Assembly (NCBI GenBank): GCA_021831785.1
Contig: JAKBMB010000011.1
Location: 193,491 to 257,490, forward strand
Direction of reading: 5' to 3'
DNA from: Deltaproteobacteria bacterium
Lineage (GTDB): Bacteria; Desulfobacterota; Binatia; Binatales; Binataceae
Length of the DNA: 64,000 bases
The position numbers and the translations under genes were made by a program. The stretch's first letter is position 1, and the number at the start of each line of letters is the position of its first letter. The notes under the pieces are model-generated. The model made no database searches. It saw only the letters and a program-made list of their open reading frames with translations, and was not told where the DNA came from. Shown piece by piece: positions 579 to 63,907 of the stretch.

Positions 579-3500
579 ATGCTTCAGCAGATCTTCGAAC
601 TTTCACTGCGCAACCGCTTTCTTGTCCTGGTTTTCGCCGGCTCGCTGATCGCGCTCGGAATGAAATCGCTCGGCCAGCTGCCGATCGACGCCGTCCCCGA
701 TATCACGCCCAATCTGGTTCAGGTCCTCGCCGTGTCGCCCGGTCTGGGCCCGGTTGATATGGAGAGGTTTATCACGTTCCCCATCGAGACCGCGATGTCT
801 GGCCTTCCTGGAATCGAACGTATCGTCTCCCTGTCGCGCTTCGGCCTGGCTCTGGTCACGATCTACTTCAAGGAAGGGATGGACGTCTATTTTTGCAGGC
901 GTCTGGTGATGGAACGTCTTCCGCAGGCGCGCCAGATGATCCCGGCGGGATTCGGGGGTCCGGCCATGGGCCCGACCGCGACCGGTCTGGGAGAAATTTA
1001 TCAGTTCGAGGTGCGCGGCGTGGGCTACTCGTTGATGGAGCTTCGCTCAATGCTCGATTGGGACATAGCGTACAAGCTCAAGTCGGTTGCGGGGGTGGTA
1101 GAGGTCAACTCCTACGGTGGCGAATCAAAGACGCTAACCTTAGAACTTAGCGCGGCGAAACTAGTGGCTTACGGCCTTGCGATCAGGCAGGTGTTCAACG
1201 CTGTCGAACAGAACAACGCTAACACCGGAGGCGGCTATATCGAGCGCGCCGGAGACCAATACCTAATCAGCGGCGAAGGGCTCATCACCGATGCCAACGC
1301 GCTGGCCAACGTAATCGTGGCCACTCGCGGCGATGGTACGCCGATCCGCATTCGCGACCTAGGTAAGGTCGGATTCGCGCCGATGGTTAGACTGGGCGCG
1401 ACCACACGCGACGGGCGCGGCGAGGTGGTGACGGGACTGGTCATGATGCTGATCGGTGAGAACTCCCGGCGCGTGGCCCAGCAAGTGCACAAGAAAATCG
1501 GAGAGATCCAGAAGACGCTGCCGCCCGGCGTCACCATCGACACCTACTACGATCGTACGGAACTGGTGAACAAGACCATTCACACGGTAGCGAAAAACCT
1601 GACCGAAGGAGCACTCCTCGTCATTGCCGTCTTGCTGCTGACCTTGGGCAATGTGCGCAGCGGGTTGGTTGTGGCAACCGCGATTCCGCTTTCAATGCTG
1701 TTCGCGTTTACGGGCATGGTCCTGACCGGCCTTTCAGGAAACCTGATGAGTCTCGGCGCGATCGACTTCGGCCTGATTGTCGACGGCTCCGTAGTGATGG
1801 TCGAAAATATTATTCGTCATCTTGCGGAGGCTGCCCGCGTTTCAGGCACCGAGAGGCGGTTGGATGACGAAGAAATGCGGGACGTGATTCGCGAGGCCGG
1901 CCGCGAGGTACTGAAGCCTATGTTCTTCGCGGTGAGCATCATCATTATCGTCTACCTGCCGATCCTCTCGCTCCAGGGCGTTGAAGGAAAGATGTTTCGC
2001 CCGATGGCGCTGACCGTGGTGTTCGCCTTGTTTGGCGCGCTGCTGCTTTCGTTCACGTTGATGCCCGTGCTGGCGAGCGTGTTGCTGCGCCGTGGCGCGT
2101 CGGAGCGCGAAACGGTTCTCATCAGGCACGCCCGCCGGCTTTACACTCCCGTGCTTGCGCGCGCCGTGAAGCGGCCGCTGGCAACGGCCGGCGCCGCGGC
2201 CGGCGTGTTCGCGCTCAGTCTGTTCGCCGCGCCATTTCTCGGGACGGAGTTCATCCCTCGACTCGATGAGGGCGCGCTTATCGTAACGGCTTGGCGCGTG
2301 CCTGGAACGTCGCTCGAGGAATCGATCCGCGACAGCACGCTGGTAGAGCGGCTGCTAAGGCGCTTTCCAGAAGTGGTCAGCGTAGTCACGAGGACTGGTA
2401 CGGGCGAGATACCGAACGATCCGATGGGCGTCGAACAAAGCGACTCGTACGTGTTTCTCGCTCCTCGTCACGAGTGGAAAACGGCTAAAACCCCGGACGG
2501 GATGACGCGAGCGTTTGACGCCGTCCTCAAAAGAAATCTGCCCGGCGTCATATTCACCTACTCGCAACCGATTGAAATGCGAATGCATGAGTTAATTTCG
2601 GGGGCGCGCTCGGATGTGGCAACGGTAATCTACGGCAGCGATTTGGGGACGCTCAAACGGCTGGGCGACGAGGTCGTCAGGGTTATCGCCGAAATCCCGG
2701 GCGCCTCCGACATCAAACCCCAACAAGTCGCCGGAACCTGGTACTTGCAAGCGGTCGTCGATCGCGACGCTATCTCCCGATACGGCATCAATGCGGCCGA
2801 TGTGCTCGATACCATTCAAGCACTTGCCGGTAAGACCGTCGGAACATTCTTTGAGGATTCGCGCCGATTCCCCATCCAGGTCCGTTTTCAGCCGGCCGAC
2901 CGCTCAAGCCCCGAAGAGATCGGCGAGCTTCGGGTCTCGGACCATCATAAAGGCTTCATCCCACTTAAGCAGCTTGCAAAAATAAGCGTCAAACAGGGGC
3001 CGGCAGAGATAAGCCGTCAGAATCTCCATCGCAGACTGATCGTGGAGACCAACGTCAGGGGAGAGGACCTCGGAGGATTCGTGGCGGCTGCGCGGCGTGC
3101 GGTCGACGAGAGAATTAAGCTGCCGCCTGGCTACTGGATTGAATGGGGAGGGCAGTTCGAAAACCTCAAACGCGCGGAAGATCGGCTAAAGCTGATGGTT
3201 CCTCTAGCCCTGTTTCTGATCTTTATGCTCCTGTATTCTACGTACGGAGCCGCAAAGCCCGCGCTTTTGATCTATCTGAACGTCCCTCTGGCTGCGACCG
3301 GAGGCATTTTTGCGCTTGCCTTGCGTGGCATGCCGTTCTCGGTCTCGGCCGGCGTGGGCTTCATCGCGCTGTTTGGAGTCGCGGTCCTGAACGGCGTGGT
3401 TCTGATGTCCTACGTTCTCCAGATGCGCCAGCGTGGTGTCGAGCCTCTAAAGGCGGCGCGCGAGGGCGCCGAGATACGGTTCAGACCGGTCTTAACGACG

Positions 3501-3701
3501 GCGCTCGTTGCAGGCCTAGGCTTTCTGCCGATGGCGATTTCGACTTCGGCCGGCGCGGAAGTGCAGCGTCCGCTCGCGACCGTTGTTATCGGCGGCCTGT
3601 TGACCTCGACAGCGCTGACTCTCTTGGTTCTGCCGGCGCTGTATGCCTGGTTGGAATCGCCAAGCGTGTCGAGCTGGTTCGGGCGCCGCCTTCAGCGTTA
3701 G
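579..3701 (+). CDS. Heavy-metal efflux RND transporter permease, CzcA/HME type
   Basis: 1040 residues, the usual HME-RND length, with the expected two repeats of membrane segments and large periplasmic loops (TM1 near residues 10-30, mid-protein TM cluster ~335-525, last cluster ~865-1030). The TM4 region reads DFGLIVDGSVVMVEN, the charged signature of the HME1 (Czc/Cnr: Zn, Co, Ni) group rather than the CusA Cu/Ag type. It exports divalent cations by proton antiport from the periplasm or cytoplasm. Start ATG follows the adaptor stop by 18 nt. The opposite-strand sigma/anti-sigma/sensor genes at 4610-6456 are plausible regulators. The exact metal is not determined by sequence. Confidence 0.93.
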   Translation: MLQQIFELSLRNRFLVLVFAGSLIALGMKSLGQLPIDAVPDITPNLVQVLAVSPGLGPVDMERFITFPIETAMSGLPGIERIVSLSRFGLALVTIYFKEGMDVYFCRRLVMERLPQARQMIPAGFGGPAMGPTATGLGEIYQFEVRGVGYSLMELRSMLDWDIAYKLKSVAGVVEVNSYGGESKTLTLELSAAKLVAYGLAIRQVFNAVEQNNANTGGGYIERAGDQYLISGEGLITDANALANVIVATRGDGTPIRIRDLGKVGFAPMVRLGATTRDGRGEVVTGLVMMLIGENSRRVAQQVHKKIGEIQKTLPPGVTIDTYYDRTELVNKTIHTVAKNLTEGALLVIAVLLLTLGNVRSGLVVATAIPLSMLFAFTGMVLTGLSGNLMSLGAIDFGLIVDGSVVMVENIIRHLAEAARVSGTERRLDDEEMRDVIREAGREVLKPMFFAVSIIIIVYLPILSLQGVEGKMFRPMALTVVFALFGALLLSFTLMPVLASVLLRRGASERETVLIRHARRLYTPVLARAVKRPLATAGAAAGVFALSLFAAPFLGTEFIPRLDEGALIVTAWRVPGTSLEESIRDSTLVERLLRRFPEVVSVVTRTGTGEIPNDPMGVEQSDSYVFLAPRHEWKTAKTPDGMTRAFDAVLKRNLPGVIFTYSQPIEMRMHELISGARSDVATVIYGSDLGTLKRLGDEVVRVIAEIPGASDIKPQQVAGTWYLQAVVDRDAISRYGINAADVLDTIQALAGKTVGTFFEDSRRFPIQVRFQPADRSSPEEIGELRVSDHHKGFIPLKQLAKISVKQGPAEISRQNLHRRLIVETNVRGEDLGGFVAAARRAVDERIKLPPGYWIEWGGQFENLKRAEDRLKLMVPLALFLIFMLLYSTYGAAKPALLIYLNVPLAATGGIFALALRGMPFSVSAGVGFIALFGVAVLNGVVLMSYVLQMRQRGVEPLKAAREGAEIRFRPVLTTALVAGLGFLPMAISTSAGAEVQRPLATVVIGGLLTSTALTLLVLPALYAWLESPSVSSWFGRRLQR

Positions 3702-54206: not shown

Positions 54207-55079
54207 ATGATTCCGGCAAGCTTCGAGTATCACCGCGCGCGCACGATAGACGAGGCGCTGGAGCTGCTCGCAAAATACGGCGAGGATGCCAAGATACTGG
54301 CCGGCGGGCAAAGTCTGCTGCCGATGATGAAGCTGCGATTGGCCTCACCCGGGCATCTGGTCGATATCAGCGAGGTCGCGCAGCTAAAGGAGCTTCGCGA
54401 GGCGGACGGACTGATCCGCATCGGCGCCGCGGCGACCGAGACGGCGCTGCTGCACTCCGCGTTGCTGCGCGGCAAATGTCCGTTGATTGGTGAAGCGGCG
54501 GCGCAGATCGGCGACCCGCAAATTCGCAACCGCGGCACGCTCGGTGGCAATCTGGCGCATGGCGACCCGGGCAACGACCATCCGTCCGTGATGATCGCGC
54601 TTGGGGCAAGCGTCATCGCGCGGGGACCTGCCGGCGAGCGCAGGCTGCCGATGGACGGGTTTTACCGGGGTTTGTACGACACCCAGCTCGAGCCGCTCGA
54701 GCTATTGACCGAAATCCAAGTGCCAACACCGCCGGCGCGCAGCGGTGCTGCCTACCTTAAGCTCAAGCGCAAAATCGGTGACTTCGCTACGGCCGCCAGC
54801 GCGGTACAACTAAGCCTGGGCGAAGGAGACACCTGCGCGCGAATCGGTATCGCGCTTACCAATGTGGCACCGATGCCGCTGCGGCTCAGCGGCGCCGAAG
54901 CGTTGCTCGCCGGCAAGCGAATCACCGCCGAGCTTATCGAGCAGGCCGCGCAGATCGCGACCGGCGCTTGCGACGCCGCCGACGACTTTCACGGGCCGTC
55001 CGAATATCGAGCTCAGATGGCCGGCGAGATGACACGGCGCGCGTTGGCCGGCGCGCTGGAGCGTGCCAGGAGAGATTAG
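54207..55079 (+). CDS. coxM: Carbon monoxide dehydrogenase FAD subunit (CoxM)
   Basis: 290 residues, FAD_binding_5 plus C-terminal CO-DH flavoprotein domain. FAD motifs [23 protein letters not shown] (~32-54) and [22 protein letters not shown] (~101-122, matching the TxGG and GGxxAHAxP elements). First gene of coxM-coxS-coxL; passes electrons from the Fe-S subunit to quinone. GGGGG site before the ATG; stop is 2 nt before coxS. Confidence 0.92.
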
Positions 55080-55081
55080 CC

Positions 55082-55573
55082 ATGGGGGACAAAAACGTGC
55101 TCCGATTCACCCTGAATGGGCGACAGGTTGAGGTTTTGGCCGAACCACGCGAGCTCCTGGTTCACGTCTTGCGCGAGCAACTGGGGCAGACCGGCACGCA
55201 CATCGGATGCGAGACCAGCCATTGCGGCGCCTGCACGGTGGACCTCAACGGCGAGTCGGTCAAGTCGTGCACCGTGCTTGGGGTCCAGGCCGAAGGCGCC
55301 GAGATCATCACGGTCGAAGGTCTGGCCAAAGACGGCAAGCTCCATCCGGTTCAAGAGGGATTTATGCAGGAGCACGCCCTGCAGTGCGGATTCTGCACCC
55401 CGGGAATTATGGTGCGCGCTTTTCGTTTTCTCAACGAAAATCCCGATCCGTCCGACGAGGAGATCCGCCTGGGCGTGTCGGGCAATCTCTGCCGCTGCAC
55501 GGGCTACCAGAACATCGTCAAAGCAGTTCGCTACGCGGCGAACAAGCTCAAGGCCGCGCGCGCGCAGGCCTAG
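55082..55573 (+). CDS. coxS: Carbon monoxide dehydrogenase small [2Fe-2S] subunit (CoxS)
   Basis: 163 residues from ATG at 55082. Ferredoxin-type cluster [21 protein letters not shown] (proximal motif C-x4-C-x2-C...C) and the second cluster in QCGFCTPG...CRCTGYQ. Carries electrons from the molybdenum subunit to CoxM. Follows coxM by 2 nt; an N-terminal extension in the same frame overlaps coxM and is rejected. Confidence 0.94.
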
Positions 55574-55716
55574 GAACCGCTGCCGCGCAGGGCGTGTTCG
55601 AGGAGGCGCAGGGAATTTTCGTCGTCGGTGTCTTCAGAACCGCCGTGAATAAGCGCGGACCACAACCGCTCGCGCCCCAAAAGTGCGATGCTGAGGCAAG
55701 TGAGAGGCTAAGGGCA

Positions 55717-58128
55717 ATGGACGCTGCGAGTGCCGCAGAAACGCTGAACAAGGACCATCTGATGGGGATCGGCAACGCGCGCAAGCGCAAGGAAGACCCA
55801 AGGTTCATCCAGGGCAAAGGCCGCTACATAGACGACATCAAGCTGCCCGACATGCTGTTCGCCAAGATGGTGCGCAGTCCTCATGGCCACGCTCGCATTA
55901 AGTCGATCAACACGCAAAAGGCGCTGGGGCTGCCCGGCGTGCATGCGGTGCTGACGGCCAACGATCTCAAGCCGCTTAAGCTGCACTGGATGCCGACCCT
56001 GGCGGGCGACGTGCAGGCCGTGCTGGCCGATGAAAAAGTATGCTTCATGGGCCAGGAAGTGGCGATGGTAGTGGCTGACGATCGTTATATAGCGGCCGAC
56101 GCCGCCGATTTGGTGGAAGTGGAATACGAGGAGCTGCCGGTCATCGTTGATCCGCACAAAGCGCTGCTGCCCGACGCTCCGGTGATTCGCGAGGATCTGG
56201 CGGGCAAGAGCGAAGGGGCGCACGGCAAACGCACGCACCATAACCACATTTTCACCTGGGAGGTTGGCGACCGGGAGGCTGCCGACCGCGTTTTTGGCCA
56301 GGCCGCGGTGACGGTCAAGGAGACCATGACCTACCAGCGCGTGCATCCCTCGCCCCTGGAGACTTGCGGATGCGTCGCTTCGTTCGACAAGGTGAAGGGC
56401 GAGCTCACCGTCTACCTGACCTCGCAGGCGCCGCACGTCGTGAGGACCGTGGTGGCGATGCTTTCCGGGATCCCCGAGAGCAGCGTGCACGTAATTTCGC
56501 CCGACATCGGCGGAGGATTCGGCAACAAGGTCGGAGTCTATCCGGGCTACGTAGTCGCGATCGTGGCTTCGATCGTCCTTGGGCGTCCCGTGAAATGGGT
56601 TGAGGAGCGGATCGAGAATTTGTCGACGACCGCCTTTGCGCGCGACTATCACATGACCGGCGAGTTGGCCGCCGACCGCAACGGCCGAATCAAGGCTTTG
56701 CGTGTCCACGTGCTGGCCGATCACGGAGCGTTCGACGCTTGCGCCGATCCCAGCAAATGGCCAGCCGGCTTCTTTAGTATCTGCACCGGTTCGTATGACA
56801 TTCCGGCCGCTTACGCGCGGGTGGACGGGATATACACTAACAAAGCGCCGGGAGGCGTGGCCTATCGATGCTCGTTCAGGGTTACCGAGGCGTCCTACGT
56901 GATCGAGCGGATGGTGGACGTTCTGGCGCAAAAGCTTGACCTCGACAAGGCCGAGGTGCGCTTGCGCAACTTTATCCGGCCGGAACAATTTCCCTATCGC
57001 TCGTCGCTCGGTTGGGAGTACGACAGCGGCAACTATCCCGCGGCGCTGCAAAAGGTGCTCACCGCGGTGGATTACTCGGGTCTGCGCCGGGAACAGGCCG
57101 AGAAGCGGGCGCGCGGCGAGCTTATGGGGATCGGCCTGTCAACTTTCACTGAAGTGGTCGGCGCGGGGCCCAGAAAGACCTGTGATATTCTGGGCATTGC
57201 CATGTTCGACAGTTGCGAGATTCGAATCCATCCTACTGGCGCGGCGATCGCGCGCTTCGGCACCAAGTCCCAGGGCCAAGCGCACGAGACCACCTATGCC
57301 CAGATTTTAGCCACGGAAATCGGCATCCCATCCGACGTGATCCAAATCGAAGAAGGGGACACTGACACCGCGCCCTACGGCTTGGGCACTTACGGTTCGC
57401 GCTCGACGCCGACCGGCGGGGCGGCCGCGGCGCTGGCCGGCCGCAAGATTCGAGAAAAGGCGCGCAAGATCGCCGCCCATCTGCTCGAAGTCAGCGCAGA
57501 GGACTTGGAATGGCAGGGCGATCGCTTCCAGGTCAAAGGCGTGCCCGACCAAGCCAAGACTATGAAGGAGATCGCCTGGGCGGCGTACAATAACCTGCCC
57601 GAGGGAATGGAGCCGGGGTTGGAGGCAGTGGAGTATTACGATCCACCCAATTTGACCTTCCCATTCGGCGCTTACTTGTGCGTCGTAGATATCGACCGTC
57701 ACACGGGAGAACCCAAAGTCAGGCGCTTTTACGCGTTGGATGACTGCGGCACGCGCATCAACCCGATGGTCATCGAGGGCCAGATTCACGGCGGACTGGC
57801 CGAGGCGTTCGCGGTGGCGATGGGGCAGGAGTTGGTTTATGACGACAGCGGCACGCTGCAGGGCGCCAGCTTCATGGACTACTTCGTGCCGACCGCCGTG
57901 GAGACGCCGTACTGGGAGACCGACTATACCGTGACGCCCTCGCCGCATCATCCGATCGGAGCCAAAGGGGTGGCGGAATCGCCCCACGTCGGCGGCGTGT
58001 CGGCTTTCTCCAACGCGGTGATCGATGCTTTTGCTCATCTGGGGGTGACGCATCTGAGCATGCCCTACACGCCTTGGCGGCTGTGGCAGAAAATTCACGA
58101 CCTAGGTCTGGATAAAAGGAGCGGGTGA
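55717..58128 (+). CDS. coxL: Form I aerobic carbon monoxide dehydrogenase large subunit (CoxL)
   Basis: 803 residues, close to the 809 of Oligotropha CoxL. The active-site loop reads AYRCSFR with Cys385, the form I signature that ligates the Cu of the Mo-Cu site; form II enzymes have AYRGAGR. Other cofactor segments: GGFGNKVGVYPG, GAGPRKTCDILG, GSRSTPTGG, and the catalytic Glu754 in IGAKGVAESPHVGG. Start ATG at 55717 is set by family length; the frame is open upstream over coxS. Oxidises CO to CO2. Gap of 143 nt after coxS. Confidence 0.95.
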   Translation: MDAASAAETLNKDHLMGIGNARKRKEDPRFIQGKGRYIDDIKLPDMLFAKMVRSPHGHARIKSINTQKALGLPGVHAVLTANDLKPLKLHWMPTLAGDVQAVLADEKVCFMGQEVAMVVADDRYIAADAADLVEVEYEELPVIVDPHKALLPDAPVIREDLAGKSEGAHGKRTHHNHIFTWEVGDREAADRVFGQAAVTVKETMTYQRVHPSPLETCGCVASFDKVKGELTVYLTSQAPHVVRTVVAMLSGIPESSVHVISPDIGGGFGNKVGVYPGYVVAIVASIVLGRPVKWVEERIENLSTTAFARDYHMTGELAADRNGRIKALRVHVLADHGAFDACADPSKWPAGFFSICTGSYDIPAAYARVDGIYTNKAPGGVAYRCSFRVTEASYVIERMVDVLAQKLDLDKAEVRLRNFIRPEQFPYRSSLGWEYDSGNYPAALQKVLTAVDYSGLRREQAEKRARGELMGIGLSTFTEVVGAGPRKTCDILGIAMFDSCEIRIHPTGAAIARFGTKSQGQAHETTYAQILATEIGIPSDVIQIEEGDTDTAPYGLGTYGSRSTPTGGAAAALAGRKIREKARKIAAHLLEVSAEDLEWQGDRFQVKGVPDQAKTMKEIAWAAYNNLPEGMEPGLEAVEYYDPPNLTFPFGAYLCVVDIDRHTGEPKVRRFYALDDCGTRINPMVIEGQIHGGLAEAFAVAMGQELVYDDSGTLQGASFMDYFVPTAVETPYWETDYTVTPSPHHPIGAKGVAESPHVGGVSAFSNAVIDAFAHLGVTHLSMPYTPWRLWQKIHDLGLDKRSG

Positions 58129-58186
58129 AGATTCACGCGTCGATGCCGACGCGCGCGCGCCGGCATATTCGCCCACGGCAGCGCCT

Positions 58187-58780
58187 GTGCAGGTAAAGCT
58201 GGAAAAAACCATCGAGATTGGCGCCCCCGCCGCGGCCGCCTGGAAGGTTATCCAGGACGTTGACAACGTTGCGGCCTGCATGCCGGGGGCCGAGATCACC
58301 GCGCGCATAGACGGCACGCATTACCAGGGCCGGGTCAAGGTCAAAGTCGGGCCGGTAGTGGCCAACTTCAAGGGGCAGCTCGAAATTCTGTCGATGGATG
58401 CCGAGAAGATGGCGCTCAAAGTGCGAGGCAAGGGCTCGGAGGAGAAGGGCGCCTCGGCGGCTTCGCTCGAGCTGAGCGCCTGGGTCAAGCCGCTAAGCCC
58501 AGACCGCTGCGAGGTCGGCGGCGTTCAGGAGTTGACGCTGACCGGCAAGCTGGCGAGCTTCGGCGCCCGCATGATGACGCAAATGGCCGAACAGATCGCT
58601 GACCGCTTCGCCGCCAATTTGAGCAACCATGTGCTGGCGGCTGCCGGCGGCGCCCATGCCGCCGCGGCCGCGGCCGAGATGCGGCAGCAACCGCGCGAGT
58701 TCAACGTGTTGGCGGCATTGGCGCGCAGCTTGTGGAACTTGATCAAGTCACTGTTTGGGGCGCGTTCGAAGCAAGTCTAA
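58187..58780 (+). CDS. coxG: CoxG, SRPBCC-fold CO dehydrogenase accessory protein
   Basis: 197 residues from GTG. CoxG/SRPBCC domain (1-150: KLEKTIEIGAPAAAAWKVIQDVDNVAACMPGAEI, GRVKVKVGPVVANFKGQLEI), Ala-rich spacer, and an amphipathic C-terminal helix (FNVLAALARSLWNLIKSLFGAR) suited to membrane contact. In other bacteria CoxG links the enzyme to the membrane and quinone pool. 58 nt after coxL and 3 nt before coxD. Confidence 0.88.
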   Translation: MQVKLEKTIEIGAPAAAAWKVIQDVDNVAACMPGAEITARIDGTHYQGRVKVKVGPVVANFKGQLEILSMDAEKMALKVRGKGSEEKGASAASLELSAWVKPLSPDRCEVGGVQELTLTGKLASFGARMMTQMAEQIADRFAANLSNHVLAAAGGAHAAAAAAEMRQQPREFNVLAALARSLWNLIKSLFGARSKQV

Positions 58781-58783
58781 GGT

Positions 58784-59695
58784 TTGGGCAAAACCGTGCG
58801 GGAGTTAGCCGAGCTCGAAGCGCGCCTCGAGCGGACCGGTTACATTACCGAACAGGGTCTGGTCTTGGCGCTGGCGCTGGCCGGCGAGCTGTCGCGCCCG
58901 CTGTTGGTCGAGGGCGAAGCGGGGGCGGGAAAGACCGCCATCGCCAAGGCCTTCGCTGACGCTTACCAACGCCCGCTTATCCGCCTCCAATGCTACGAAG
59001 GGCTCGATGTCAACAGCGCAGTATACGAATGGGACTATCAGCGTCAGTTAATCGCGATCAAGCTCCATGAGGGCCGGCGCGGCGACCAAGAGCTGGAGCA
59101 TCAAATCTTCAGCGAAGAGTACTTGCTCAAGCGCCCGCTGCTCCAGGCGATCAGCATGGCCGAACCCCCGGTGCTGCTTATCGACGAAATCGACCGCGCC
59201 GGCGACGAGTTCGAGGCCTACCTCCTCGAGGTTCTCTCCGATTATCAGATTAGCATCCCGGAGTTGGGCACTATCCGGGCGCGCTCCGCGCCGTTCGTGC
59301 TGCTGACCTCCAACGCCACGCGCGAACTGAGCGACGCCCTGCGCCGGCGCTGTTTGTATTATTATCTGCCCTTCCCCAGCTTCGAGAAAGAGCTGCGCAT
59401 CGTCAACGCCCGCTTGCCGGGAATCAGTCGCAGGCTCGCCGGCGAGCTGGTGAGCTTTGTGCAGGCCTTGCGCGGCTTTGAGCTGCGGAAAAAGCCGGGC
59501 GTGGCGGAGACCCTGGACTGGGCGGCCGCGCTGGTCGGACTTCGGATTACGGGCCTGGACCAGGAGCGGGAAAGGCTCGCGCAAAGCCTGATCTGCTTGC
59601 TCAAGACCCGCGAGGACCAGCTCGCGGTGAACCCCGAGATGGTCGGGCGCCTGCTCGCTCAGTCGCTGCTCGGCGCCGATGGGACGCGCGATTGA
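58784..59695 (+). CDS. coxD: CoxD, MoxR-family AAA+ ATPase
   Basis: 303 residues from TTG (GTG at 58796 alternative). Walker A GEAGAGKT (~43-50), Walker B VLLIDEIDRA (~125), sensor-1 TSNATRELSDALRRRC with Arg finger. Works with the VWA protein CoxE to insert S and Cu and mature the [CuSMoO2] site in known systems. 3 nt after coxG. Confidence 0.92.
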   Translation: MGKTVRELAELEARLERTGYITEQGLVLALALAGELSRPLLVEGEAGAGKTAIAKAFADAYQRPLIRLQCYEGLDVNSAVYEWDYQRQLIAIKLHEGRRGDQELEHQIFSEEYLLKRPLLQAISMAEPPVLLIDEIDRAGDEFEAYLLEVLSDYQISIPELGTIRARSAPFVLLTSNATRELSDALRRRCLYYYLPFPSFEKELRIVNARLPGISRRLAGELVSFVQALRGFELRKKPGVAETLDWAAALVGLRITGLDQERERLAQSLICLLKTREDQLAVNPEMVGRLLAQSLLGADGTRD

Positions 59696-59774
59696 GAATC
59701 GGCGCGCCGGTCGCGTCGGCGCTTTGCGCGGACCGGCATTGCGAATCGAGATTTTGACCTAAGGCCAGCGCGCG

Positions 59775-60929
59775 ATGAAAGACGGACGGGAAGTGGCTGC
59801 CAACGGCTTTGAGATAACCGCTCGGTTTATTGAGTTCGCTCGTTTCGCCCGCGCTAATGGCTTGCGAATGGGAATTGCCGAAGACCTTGACGCCGCCCGG
59901 GTCGCCGTGAGCCGCGGGGTCGCCAGCCGCGAAGCCTTGTACTGGGCTCTGCGGAGCCTCTTTTGTCGCACGCGCGAGGATTGGGAGCGCTTTCCGGCCC
60001 TCTTCGACGCGTTCTGGAAATGTAAGGAGCCTCACACGACCACCGTGATCGTCGAGGGCAGCAGCGCGCGCGGTGGCGGGACGCACGAGCGCCCGGCAGG
60101 TGCTGTAAGCTGGGACGAGGACCGATCGTTGGCGGGAGCGCACGGGCGGGACGGCCGGCGCTCGGGTGCTTCGAGCCGGCGAGGCCTAGCGCGCCAGGAC
60201 TTTCGCGAGCTCGTCAAGGTAGACCAGATGCGGCCGCTTACGGCGCTGGTGGAGCGGCTGGCAACACGGATGCGCAAGCGCATCATGCGCCGGCTCAAGG
60301 CGGCGCCCAAGGGCCGGCTTAACTTCCGCGCCACAATTCGCAACAGCCTGCCGTACGGCGGCCTGCCGCTTAAGCTCGCCTTGCGCCGGCGCGTCAAGCG
60401 TCCGCCAAAGCTGCTGCTGCTGCTGGACGTTAGCGGTTCGATGAGCCTCTACAGCATGCTTTTCCTGCGCTTTGCGCGGGTAATCGCGCGCGTCTTCAGC
60501 GAGGTCGAGGTGTTCGTGTTCCACACCCAGCTCGTACGTACCACAGAGGCGCTGCGCGAGCGCAACGCCGAGCGCATGAAGGAGCGCATCGAGTTGATTT
60601 CTTTGGGATGGGCGGGCGGCACGCGCATCGGACATTCGCTGCGCCAGCTCAACGACCGCTTCGGCCGGCACGTTGTGGCTCGCCGGCCAATCGTTGTAAT
60701 TATAAGTGACGGGCTTGACACGGGTCCGGCCGCGGACCTGGCCCTGGAGTTAAATCGTTTGAAGCGCAGAGCCGGGCGTCTGGTTTGGCTCAACCCGCTT
60801 TTCGGGCGCCCAGGATATGAGCCGACAGCAGCCGGGATGGCCGCCGCGCTTCCGTATCTCGACGCGTTTCTGCCGGCTCACGATCTTGCCAGCCTAGAGG
60901 CGCTGGAGCCTTATCTTGCCGGCTTATGA
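59775..60929 (+). CDS. coxE: CoxE, VWA-domain CO dehydrogenase maturation protein
   Basis: 384 residues. N-terminal CoxE region, basic middle, and VWA domain with MIDAS motif DVSGSMS (~218-224), Thr in GGTRIGHSL and Asp in VIISDGLDTG. Partner of CoxD in Mo-Cu site assembly. 79 nt after coxD. Confidence 0.92.
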   Translation: MKDGREVAANGFEITARFIEFARFARANGLRMGIAEDLDAARVAVSRGVASREALYWALRSLFCRTREDWERFPALFDAFWKCKEPHTTTVIVEGSSARGGGTHERPAGAVSWDEDRSLAGAHGRDGRRSGASSRRGLARQDFRELVKVDQMRPLTALVERLATRMRKRIMRRLKAAPKGRLNFRATIRNSLPYGGLPLKLALRRRVKRPPKLLLLLDVSGSMSLYSMLFLRFARVIARVFSEVEVFVFHTQLVRTTEALRERNAERMKERIELISLGWAGGTRIGHSLRQLNDRFGRHVVARRPIVVIISDGLDTGPAADLALELNRLKRRAGRLVWLNPLFGRPGYEPTAAGMAAALPYLDAFLPAHDLASLEALEPYLAGL

Positions 60930-61016
60930 CGGCGTGGCGCTTCGCGAGTTCGTGTTTGGACGTTGCTCAGGCCTGGTATTGCGGCGTGACACAAAGGGCG
61001 TGCTCGACCATCGCAA

Positions 61017-62024
61017 ATGACGACCAACGATTCGGTACTGCAACTGGCGGCTGAGCTGCGCGAGAAAGACGCGCCGTTCGCATTGGTTACGGTGGTGCGC
61101 TGCGAGTCGCCGACGTCCGCCAAGCCCGGCGACAAGGCTGTGGTCGATTCCGAGGGCGCGATCCACGGCTGGATCGGGGGCGGATGCGCGCAGCCGGTGG
61201 TGACCAAGGCCGCCCTTCGCGCGCTGGCTGAGGAGCGTCCATGCCTCGTCCGCATCAGTCCGCATCGCGAGGCCGACGGGGCGCAGGGTATCGTGCACGT
61301 GGTCATGGCGTGCCACAGCGGAGGAACTCTGGACATTTTCATCGATCCGATCAAACCCCAGCCCGAATTGCTCATCATTGGGGTCACGCCGGTGGCGCAA
61401 GCGCTGTGTGCTTTAGCCAGCCGAGTGGGCTTCGCGGTGAGCGCGGCCGGCGAGGGCGCCGCGCCCGATATGTTCGTTGACGCCAAACGCGTGATTGACG
61501 GTCCGGCGCTTTCCCAGGCCAAGCCCAAGCCGCGATTTGTGGCTGTTGCCACCCAAGGCGAAAAAGATGAAGAAGGGCTCGAGGCGGCGCTCGCGACTGG
61601 GGCACCCTATATCGCGTTTGTTGCCAGCGAGCGCAAGGCCGCCAAAATGAAGCAATACCTGCGCGAGCGCGGTCATGCGGCCGAGCGCGTCGAGGCCATC
61701 GTTTCACCGGCAGGAATCCCCATCAATGCCGCAACCCCCGAGGAAATCGCGCTATCGCTGCTTGCCGCTCTGGTCCGGGAGCGCCGCGCCTCGTATCGTC
61801 GGCCCGATGAACTGTCAACTCCCCAGCCGGCGGATGCCGATGACTTGGAAGCGCCGGCCCAGCCGACCGCGGTCGACCCCATCTGTGGGATGGCTGTCGA
61901 CCCGGCCGGTGCGCAGTACGCGGCTGCTCGCGAGGGTCGGACATGGTACTTTTGCTCGGCCCACTGCCTGCACGCCTTCGAACAGGCGGCTGACTCCGTT
62001 TCTACCGCTCGAAGGGCCAAATGA
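61017..62024 (+). CDS. coxF: CoxF/XdhC family protein with C-terminal YHS domain
   Basis: 335 residues. N-terminal XdhC-CoxI domain (LAAELREKDAPFALVTVVRCESPTSAKPGDKAVVD, GWIGGGCAQPVV), XdhC Rossmann-type domain (~118-255; PELLIIGVTPVAQALCALASRVGF), then a YHS domain (~287-325: DPICGMAVDPAGAQYAA, YFCSAHC) with two Cys pairs typical of metal binding. XdhC-type proteins deliver or sulfurate Mo cofactor; YHS domains bind Cu or other soft metals. The fusion is suggestive for a Mo-Cu enzyme. ATGA overlap with the next gene. Confidence 0.87.
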   Translation: MTTNDSVLQLAAELREKDAPFALVTVVRCESPTSAKPGDKAVVDSEGAIHGWIGGGCAQPVVTKAALRALAEERPCLVRISPHREADGAQGIVHVVMACHSGGTLDIFIDPIKPQPELLIIGVTPVAQALCALASRVGFAVSAAGEGAAPDMFVDAKRVIDGPALSQAKPKPRFVAVATQGEKDEEGLEAALATGAPYIAFVASERKAAKMKQYLRERGHAAERVEAIVSPAGIPINAATPEEIALSLLAALVRERRASYRRPDELSTPQPADADDLEAPAQPTAVDPICGMAVDPAGAQYAAAREGRTWYFCSAHCLHAFEQAADSVSTARRAK

Positions 62025-62644
62025 GCGAAATTTCCGCAATCGTGCTGGCGGCCGGACAGTCGCGCCGGATGGGCAGCGCCAACAAGCTAACTATGCCGAT
62101 GGGCGGAGTTCCGCTGCTTCGTCGCGTGCTTGAAAGCCTGAGCGCCGTGGAGTTGCGGGAAATCGTCGTGGTGCTCGGACATCAGGCGCAAGAGGTCCTT
62201 GCGCTGCTGCGCGGCTTGAACGTTCGAACGGTCCTGAACGAGCGCTTTAGCGAGGGCCAGATGAGTTCGGTATGGGCCGGAATGACCGCGCTTAGCCGGC
62301 CCTGTGCGGGCGTGATAGTATCCCTGGGCGACCAGCCGCTACTGACCGCGGACGATTTACGCGCTCTGATCTCGGCCTTCGACCGAATCGGGGATCGCTC
62401 GATTCTTGTGCCCACGTATCGCGGGCGGCGCGGCAACCCAATCATCCTCGCCTACCGGCATCGACAAGCGATTCTGATGGGCGATCGCAACCTTGGCTGC
62501 AAGCGGCTTATCGAACGTAACCCCGATTTGGTCGCGCCGGTTGAGATGGACAACGACCATTTCGTGGTTGATATCGACACTATGGAGAGCTACCGAGCCG
62601 CGGTCGAGCGGGTCGAGGCGAACGCAGCGACCGGGAGCGACTGA
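62021..62644 (+). CDS. MocA/MobA-like molybdenum cofactor nucleotidyltransferase
   Basis: 207 residues. Motif LAAGQSRRMGSANKL (~8-22), LGDQPLLTADDLRAL, and PTYRGRRGNPIILAYRH. MocA proteins add CMP to molybdopterin (MCD form), the cofactor used by CO dehydrogenase and relatives. Translation coupled to the XdhC-YHS gene by ATGA. Confidence 0.9.
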   Translation: MSEISAIVLAAGQSRRMGSANKLTMPMGGVPLLRRVLESLSAVELREIVVVLGHQAQEVLALLRGLNVRTVLNERFSEGQMSSVWAGMTALSRPCAGVIVSLGDQPLLTADDLRALISAFDRIGDRSILVPTYRGRRGNPIILAYRHRQAILMGDRNLGCKRLIERNPDLVAPVEMDNDHFVVDIDTMESYRAAVERVEANAATGSD

Positions 62645-63109
62645 AGAAGACACCGGTTCCCGCGTCCTGCCTCTTAGCTCTGAAGCGAAAGTAACTTCAT
62701 TGATGAAGACTCGGAAGTCCTCGCCCTATGCTTGTGTCACAGCCGAAAGGCAGAGCATCGGCTTTGAGGTTTTTGGTGCGTTGGACGTTGTCCGGTCCGC
62801 GGGTCTCGGTGGCGCGGGCGGCCCTGCTCGCGCGAAGCACGGGCGGGCACCGCGGCTCGCCCCACTAGGATTTATTTTTGCTTCAGGGTTAAGTAGCGCT
62901 GGCGCAATTGGGCAGCGGTTCCTGTCAGAGGTCATTTTGTTGCGACGTTTGTTGTTGAATTGTCCCGCCGCCGCGGGCCGGGATCTAACCATACATTGTC
63001 CGCCAGGCCACGCGCGGCTGCACGGCCCAAGGTCACGCCCTGACGCGTATGCGGAGTTGGTCACGGAACCCGACGCGGCTCGCAATGTCGCATTGTTGGA
63101 ACTAAACCC
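62645..63109. other. Non-coding stretch of 465 bases
   Basis: Locally AT-rich (for example GGATTTATTTTTGC) compared with the genes around it. Open frames overlap the neighbours and lack ribosome sites. It may hold a separate promoter for the second XdhC gene. Nothing else is recognised. Confidence 0.45.
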
Positions 63110-63907
63110 ATGGCGCAGGACATAGTTGATGTGGTGAAGGCGCTGCGTTCTCGCGGGCGACCCTTCGCGCTCGCAACAGTGGTCGAGACCCGAGGCTCCG
63201 CATCGGCCAAAAGCGGCGCCAAAGCGGTGATCGACGCCGACGGCAAAGTGGTCGCAGGATGGGTCGGCGGCGGCTGCGCCGAATCGACCGCCGCTCATGA
63301 GGCGCTGCGCTGTATCGCGGCCGGCAGCCCGGCGATCATCGATATAGAGCTCGACGACGAGGTCTTGGGCGCCGGGATGCCGTGCGGAGGCAGCATGCGA
63401 CTCTACATTGAACCGATCTTGCCGAAGCCCAGGCTATGGATACTGGGCCACGGGAGAATAGCCGAATGCGTCTGCCTATTCGCCGACGCGGTCGGGTTCG
63501 AGGTGGTCGTGGACGACCCCGCGGCCGAGGCCGAGAAATATCCTGGCGCGAGCCGTTTGATCGCCGAGGACCTGGAGTACGAAGAATTTCGCCCGGACGC
63601 GCAGGACTTCGTCGTTATCGCCACCCAGCATCGCGGCGACCACGAATCGCTCGCTCGCGCCCTGAGCGGCGCGGCGCGCTACGTGGCGCTGATCGCCAGC
63701 CGCAAGCGCGCCGATCTGGTGCTGGACTATTTGCGCCGGCAGGGCGCGGCGGCGCGGGATCTGGAGCGAGTGCACGCCCCTGCCGGCCTCGACTTGGGCG
63801 CGCGCACCCCGGAGGAGATCGCCTTGTGCGTCGTCAGCGAGATTGTCCAGGTTCGCCGCGGCGGGAGCGGGTTACCGATGGGCGGGCGCGGGCGCTTAAG
63901 CGCATAG
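63110..63907 (+). CDS. XdhC/CoxI family molybdenum cofactor maturation protein
   Basis: 265 residues. N-terminal XdhC-CoxI domain (VEALRSRGRPFALATVVETRGSASAKSGAKAVIDADGKVVAGWVGGGCAES) and C-terminal NAD-like domain with GHGRIAECV (~108-116), plus PAGLDLGARTPEEIALCVVSEIV near the end. A canonical XdhC without YHS domain, complementing the fusion at 61017. Delivers sulfurated Mo cofactor to the CO dehydrogenase or another hydroxylase. Confidence 0.9.
   Translation: MAQDIVDVVKALRSRGRPFALATVVETRGSASAKSGAKAVIDADGKVVAGWVGGGCAESTAAHEALRCIAAGSPAIIDIELDDEVLGAGMPCGGSMRLYIEPILPKPRLWILGHGRIAECVCLFADAVGFEVVVDDPAAEAEKYPGASRLIAEDLEYEEFRPDAQDFVVIATQHRGDHESLARALSGAARYVALIASRKRADLVLDYLRRQGAAARDLERVHAPAGLDLGARTPEEIALCVVSEIVQVRRGGSGLPMGGRGRLSA

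Follow-up and report, generated by a model that had tools for sequence, protein, structure and literature searches.

A YHS domain, a candidate copper-binding module, fused to the CoxF maturation factor of form I CO dehydrogenases

Aerobic CO dehydrogenase has, to our knowledge, the only Mo-Cu active site described, and what we know of the route taken by its copper all comes from a single alphaproteobacterium, by way of insertion mutants and guesses based on motifs. In Oligotropha (Afipia) carboxidovorans, the CO dehydrogenase of a coxF::km mutant contains 0.043 Cu, 1.85 Mo and 1.40 sulfane S mol/mol, against 1.47 Cu, 1.73 Mo and 1.53 S in the wild type; a coxE mutant behaves like the coxF mutant and a coxG mutant does not (PMC4240915). 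Sulfuration of the enzyme was assigned to CoxD, and CoxF was proposed by the same authors to supply copper via the motif M107CPSHGTM (PMC4240915). Since coxF mutants keep their full Mo, CoxF works at the copper step and not in delivery of the Mo cofactor; in fact, the mutants place its action after Mo insertion and largely after sulfuration. In Oligotropha, neither CoxF nor CoxE appears in the cell without the other, and part of the coxF phenotype could therefore stem from the loss of CoxE. A first-pass annotation of the locus described below had called its CoxF a Mo-cofactor delivery protein, which these Mo contents contradict, and had held the copper donor to be unclear, although CoxF had by then been put forward as that donor. 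It had also imagined a coupling of Mo sulfuration with copper insertion: the loss of copper from the coxF mutant speaks for the copper half of this idea, and the retained sulfur and the assignment to CoxD speak against the sulfuration half.

Here we describe a CoxF that ends in a YHS domain. The sole biochemical precedent that we found for copper and a YHS is an adenylyl cyclase of M. phlei, which copper activates only when its YHS is present (PMC4626032). Other YHS/TRASH domains hold Cd, as in ribosomal L24e, or no visible metal, as in toluene-4-hydroxylase. CoxF, XdhC and YHS are each known already, and the fusion, which varies a maturation factor already described, must be present as an architecture in domain databases. 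A search of the open literature (subscription journals lay outside its scope) found no paper describing an XdhC-YHS fusion, and the only texts in it naming both "YHS domain" and "CO dehydrogenase" were reviews on selenoproteins.

The window, a stretch of 64,000 nucleotides, contains a complete form I CO-dehydrogenase operon in the order coxM-S-L-G-D-E-F-mocA-xdhC2 (Table 1). Its CoxL is of form I, scoring 1448 bits with TIGR02416 (cut-off 991) and displaying the AYxCSFR copper-ligand motif. The fusion gene is coxF by position, because it lies in a complete cox operon with a form I CoxL, and the trees agree, placing its product in the CoxF clade beside gammaproteobacterial CoxF. The product is thus the CoxF of a form I CO dehydrogenase; with TIGR02964, the model for the XdhC of xanthine dehydrogenase, it scores 37.5 bits (cut-off 161.6). 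The gene that follows probably encodes a molybdopterin cytidylyltransferase, its best NCBIfam model being matur_MocA_YgfJ at a score under the cut-off of that model.

Table 1. Genes of the cox operon and parts of the CoxF protein (positions in the window)
Feature	Position	Strand	Evidence
coxM (FAD subunit)	54207..55079	+	Pfam FAD_binding_5, CO_deh_flav_C
coxS (2Fe-2S subunit)	55082..55573	+	Pfam Fer2, Fer2_2
coxL, form I, copper ligand in AYRCSFR, start codon approximate	55711..58128	+	TIGR02416, motif
coxG	58187..58780	+	Pfam COXG
coxD (AAA+ ATPase)	58784..59695	+	Pfam AAA_5
coxE (VWA_CoxE)	59775..60929	+	Pfam VWA_CoxE E 7.6e-58
coxF (XdhC_CoxI-XdhC_C-YHS protein, 335 aa)	61017..62024	+	ORF, Pfam, CoxF clade in trees
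XdhC_CoxI domain of CoxF, aa 15-80, holds C57 in GWIGGGC	61059..61256	+	PF02625 E 6.4e-18
CoxF signature MACHSGG, aa 97-103 (C99-x-S101-x-G103)	61305..61325	+	alignment
XdhC_C Rossmann domain of CoxF, aa 118-251	61368..61769	+	PF13478 E 5.8e-24
Linker of CoxF, aa 252-285, low confidence	61770..61871	+	pLDDT 55-60 mid-linker; homologue alignment
YHS domain of CoxF, aa 286-324, predicted ligands D287, C290, C313, C317	61872..61988	+	PF04945
MocA/MobA-like NTP transferase, overlaps coxF stop	62021..62644	+	Pfam NTP_transf_3
Second XdhC (CoxI position), without YHS, non-CoxF clade in tree	63110..63907	+	Pfam XdhC domains only

The operon looks horizontally acquired: XdhC-YHS was found in none of 38 near relatives of the host and in none of 395 members of its phylum, and the CoxF groups with Gammaproteobacteria. 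Because the relatives of the host gave no such fusion, the survey was shifted to other phyla. The GC content of the operon (54207-63907) is 0.638, close to the 0.626 of the remaining window. Elsewhere in the window, positions 579-3701 encode an RND efflux pump of full length (ACR_tran, 1040 aa).

The coxF frame starts with ATG and runs without interruption to a TGA that overlaps the ATG of the next gene (62021). The first-pass annotation had read it as XdhC/CoxF fused to a C-terminal YHS, and this is borne out: the Pfam domains stand in one frame, the motifs that it quoted (DPICGMAV...YFCSAHC) are exact, and the YHS scores 43.3 bits (E=3.7e-11) against a curated cut-off of 30.3, with all four predicted metal ligands of the pattern (D/C, C, C, C) in place. 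The AlphaFold2 model (43 homologues, mean pLDDT 90) is confident in the XdhC body and in the C-terminal domain (10-residue YHS blocks at 78-95); the linker between them is weakly predicted and, as the alignment shows, differs in length between homologues. A fold search with the full CoxF model returned XdhC folds only, without the small YHS surfacing, and phmmer with the YHS alone gave weak L24e matches. A chance match is ruled out by the rarity of the YHS pattern, which all six frames of the window contain just once and none of 200 codon-shuffled windows contains at all, and a frameshift or assembly joint by the many unrelated genomes that share the architecture.

How does this protein compare with described ones? 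The CoxF of O. carboxidovorans OM5 (pHCG3; L017 among our numbered loci) has the same position after coxD-coxE, the same XdhC domains and CxSxG loop, belongs to the same clade and is about 40% identical over aa 1-265, but it stops after the XdhC domain, with neither YHS nor Cys-Cys tail. CoxF of Comamonadaceae, Limnohabitans and Hydrogenophaga (L036, L038 and others) is the same gene in the same type of cluster and forms an adjoining clade, yet it ends in one to three SCCGG motifs instead of a YHS. The XdhC of xanthine dehydrogenase (R. capsulatus type, TIGR02964) shares the XdhC_CoxI and Rossmann architecture, and the solved XdhC folds 2we7/2we8 and 3on5 are the best PDB matches to the window protein; these proteins have no YHS, and CGG where CoxF has CxSxG. 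The M. phlei cyclase (PMC4626032) resembles CoxF in its C-terminal YHS, short linker and D-C-C-C ligand set but differs in its partner domain, a nucleotide cyclase, and in its role, copper-dependent signalling. Finally, copper P-type ATPases with a YHS show the same ligand pattern on a membrane pump, where the domain is N-terminal and not C-terminal as in CoxF; the only other YHS of the genome is in such a protein, a YHS-HMBD-E1-E2 ATPase of the copper type.

To see which Mo hydroxylases the fusion accompanies, genome contigs were scanned with an alignment of five fusions, a similarity-based survey that gave 80 loci, most of the surveyed loci being metagenome assemblies. They come from Pseudomonadota, Bacteroidota, Chloroflexota, Actinomycetota, Acidobacteriota, Gemmatimonadota, Verrucomicrobiota, Armatimonadota, SAR324, Dormibacterota, Nitrososphaerota and Thermoplasmata, and two further loci were added, one on a haloarchaeal and one on a Deinococcus plasmid. 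After deduplication, 110 distinct XdhC-YHS ORFs were available from many phyla of bacteria and archaea. An intact form I coxL adjoins 94 of them; ten adjoin form-I-like coxL fragments, at contig edges or broken, that are 50-63% identical to the window CoxL (the one in L051 matches a form II reference equally well, so that it carries no weight either way); and six have no CoxL-family gene in the locus. For L029, the best of these orphans, the genome has a form I CoxL on another contig. The first-pass annotation had allowed that fusions might prove equally common beside non-copper Mo hydroxylases: among the 110 loci, the number beside a non-form-I enzyme is zero. Every complete, in-frame CoxL motif beside a fusion or CoxF keeps the Cys of (Y/F)xCSF; one AYRGAGR enzyme, in L023, is a second gene further along the locus.

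A less biased survey covered 149 Actinomycetota, 151 Chloroflexota and 299 Pseudomonadota genomes. Among the Actinomycetota we counted about 27 fusions, and all those with a readable neighbour adjoin form I coxL. In the Chloroflexota the hits of a CoxL search fell into two well-separated groups, form I at 990-1156 bits and the rest at 677-737 bits, and XdhC-YHS stands at 23/23 form I loci vs 0/20 other (form II) loci. In the Pseudomonadota, the 11 readable form I loci besides the search centre carry CoxF without YHS. One thaumarchaeote has two fusions, each beside a form I coxL. The fusion is thus confined to form I cox clusters, in which it is very widespread. As a rule for annotation, XdhC-YHS, or CxSxG in an XdhC, flags a cox cluster of form I, also where coxL itself is on a different contig. 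A general habit of XdhC proteins to carry a YHS is ruled out, since none of the 52 non-CoxF XdhC proteins on the tree has one and none was found at about 50 other XdhC places in 40 fusion-bearing genomes.

Some loci depart from the usual layout. An acidimicrobial one (L094:8005-10873) has an intact XdhC-YHS beside fragmented coxM and coxL frames, from assembly error or decay, and two archaeal triple fusions (L023:3940-5625 and L085:2143-3996) join a MocA-like cytidylyltransferase, XdhC and YHS in one frame.

Conservation singles out the cysteines. An alignment of 43 fusions has just 14 invariant columns, five of which are C57 and C99 in the XdhC part and C290, C313 and C317 in the YHS. The YHS Cys triad is complete in 110/111 fusions; the exception is Deinococcus sp. 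AJ005 (L016:8998-10056), whose YHS-like tail has lost the first two ligands (SPVDGE...FTCANC) and falls just under the Pfam cut-off, with an intact form I coxL adjoining. C57 is present in 149/149 rows of the CoxF clade. So is C99, and S101 of the same C99-x-S101-x-G103 loop is found in 145/149, making the loop a common feature of all the CO oxidisers' CoxF that we surveyed. Compared with the CGG/CNG of other XdhC proteins, 52/52 of which show a gap at both inserted positions, it has two extra residues, and it occupies the very site of the putative Cu motif published for Oligotropha (PMC4240915).

With other XdhC proteins as the outgroup, the CoxF clade, which includes the O. carboxidovorans protein, is set apart with support of 99 (FastTree) and 93 (IQ-TREE quick). 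Of its 149 rows, 111 have a YHS and 21 a Cys-Cys tail; 16 show neither, and the remaining one (L040) is scrambled. A smaller mixture-model tree shows three changes of the YHS label, and the best reading is that the domain was gained once, at the CoxF base, and lost twice; supports below 95 on some forks make the count of two losses the best reading rather than a certain one. One loss would fall in Alphaproteobacteria, including the model Oligotropha (L229-L239 are labelled alphaproteobacterial from their grouping in the tree with Afipia, Bradyrhizobium and Marivivens), and the other in a group of Burkholderiales and Litoricola. In this second group all 21 readable burkholderial CoxF proteins have one to three copies of SCCGG, SCCGH or a like motif at the C-terminus (L036, L038, L043, L052, L065 and others). 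A Natronorubrum fusion (L015) carries CCGGG in its linker in addition to the YHS. Since the fusion has a single origin, its form I neighbours reflect inheritance and retention and do not count as independent events. In fact, the form I linkage could reflect the inheritance of any CoxF trait. The weight for copper therefore lies with the retained Cys triad, the coxF phenotype and the Cys-Cys tails that replace the YHS.

To explain these results we propose, with a probability of about 0.6, that CoxF is the factor of the copper step, seen here in its ancestral two-part form, and that the YHS is a Cu-binding module, useful but dispensable. The XdhC body would dock on folded CoxL already loaded with Mo and S, and the CoxF-specific C99-x-S-x-G loop would contact the Mo-SH site. 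We infer that the C-terminal YHS on its flexible tether would bind one Cu(I) via D287/C290/C313/C317, raising the local copper supply, and that it would pass this copper on, either to the CxSxG loop or straight to Mo-SH/Cys388 of CoxL, a hand-over that the flexible linker would permit. Copper is inserted in Oligotropha with a CoxF that has no YHS, which shows that some lineages do not strictly need the domain. The degenerate YHS of Deinococcus sp. AJ005, next to an intact form I coxL, also weighs against the proposal.

A YHS that binds copper need not deliver it. It might be a sensor or gate, with Cu switching CoxF, or a CoxE/CoxD complex, on or off and its own copper not passed on. Such a switch is what the M. 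phlei cyclase, the one biochemically studied YHS fusion, makes of its domain, and a position on a flexible linker and a readiness to be lost would both suit it. We nevertheless find it unlikely: CoxF itself is required for Cu insertion, which makes delivery the simpler role, and the Cys-Cys tails that take the place of the YHS resemble metal-binding tags, not regulatory domains. We would rank slightly lower, and also as unlikely, a structural role in which the YHS, with Zn or no metal, holds CoxF to CoxE, CoxD or CoxL and the link to copper is a by-product of descent from one ancestral fusion. The single origin, the dispensability of the domain in Alphaproteobacteria and the ability of YHS/TRASH folds to bind other metals or none would all be compatible with docking. 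However, it leaves unexplained why three YHS cysteines, in bacteria and archaea alike, are among the few invariant columns of the whole protein, and why the domain is limited to the maturation of the only enzyme in the family that contains copper. That the YHS is a neutral passenger with no selected role in CODH maturation is very improbable: at least two losses and the degenerate Deinococcus copy would agree with it, but a neutral tail would have decayed, and the triad is instead full almost throughout, in many phyla and both prokaryotic domains.

The copper-step reading that we favour has a bolder extension, which we hold more tentatively and at somewhat less than even odds. CoxF may have been a two-site copper inserter (CxSxG loop and YHS) from the start, with a thiolate copper module travelling along in most lineages as a YHS, a CCGG tail or else a small peptide of its own ending in -FPCC. 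If so, the main module would be the one lost from the lineage of the model bacterium, and this may explain why it went unnoticed. A conserved candidate copper site, missing from the model organism, is present in the CoxF of most CO oxidisers, which makes the YHS a directly testable candidate for the copper source of CO dehydrogenase.

Some clusters whose CoxF has no YHS show other cysteine-rich ends. In Marivivens-like clusters, a small ORF (about 30-42 aa) that ends in FPCC lies 3' of coxF and just before coxG (L019:9776-9898; L236:10760-10858; at the coxF stop in L237, 10431-10529, and in L238); in L239:11109-11270 it stands behind a MocA-like gene. Several of these ORFs have a good ribosome-binding site, and a comparable one in L229 ends in TPVCC. 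The -FPCC product could be a separate thiol peptide replacing the lost YHS. In Afipia and Bradyrhizobium, where CoxF has neither YHS nor CCGG, CoxG closes with HWCCI(G/N)GHAHAQN, possibly a metal-binding tail, behind a hydrophobic stretch (L017:10380-10457, L018:10400-10469).
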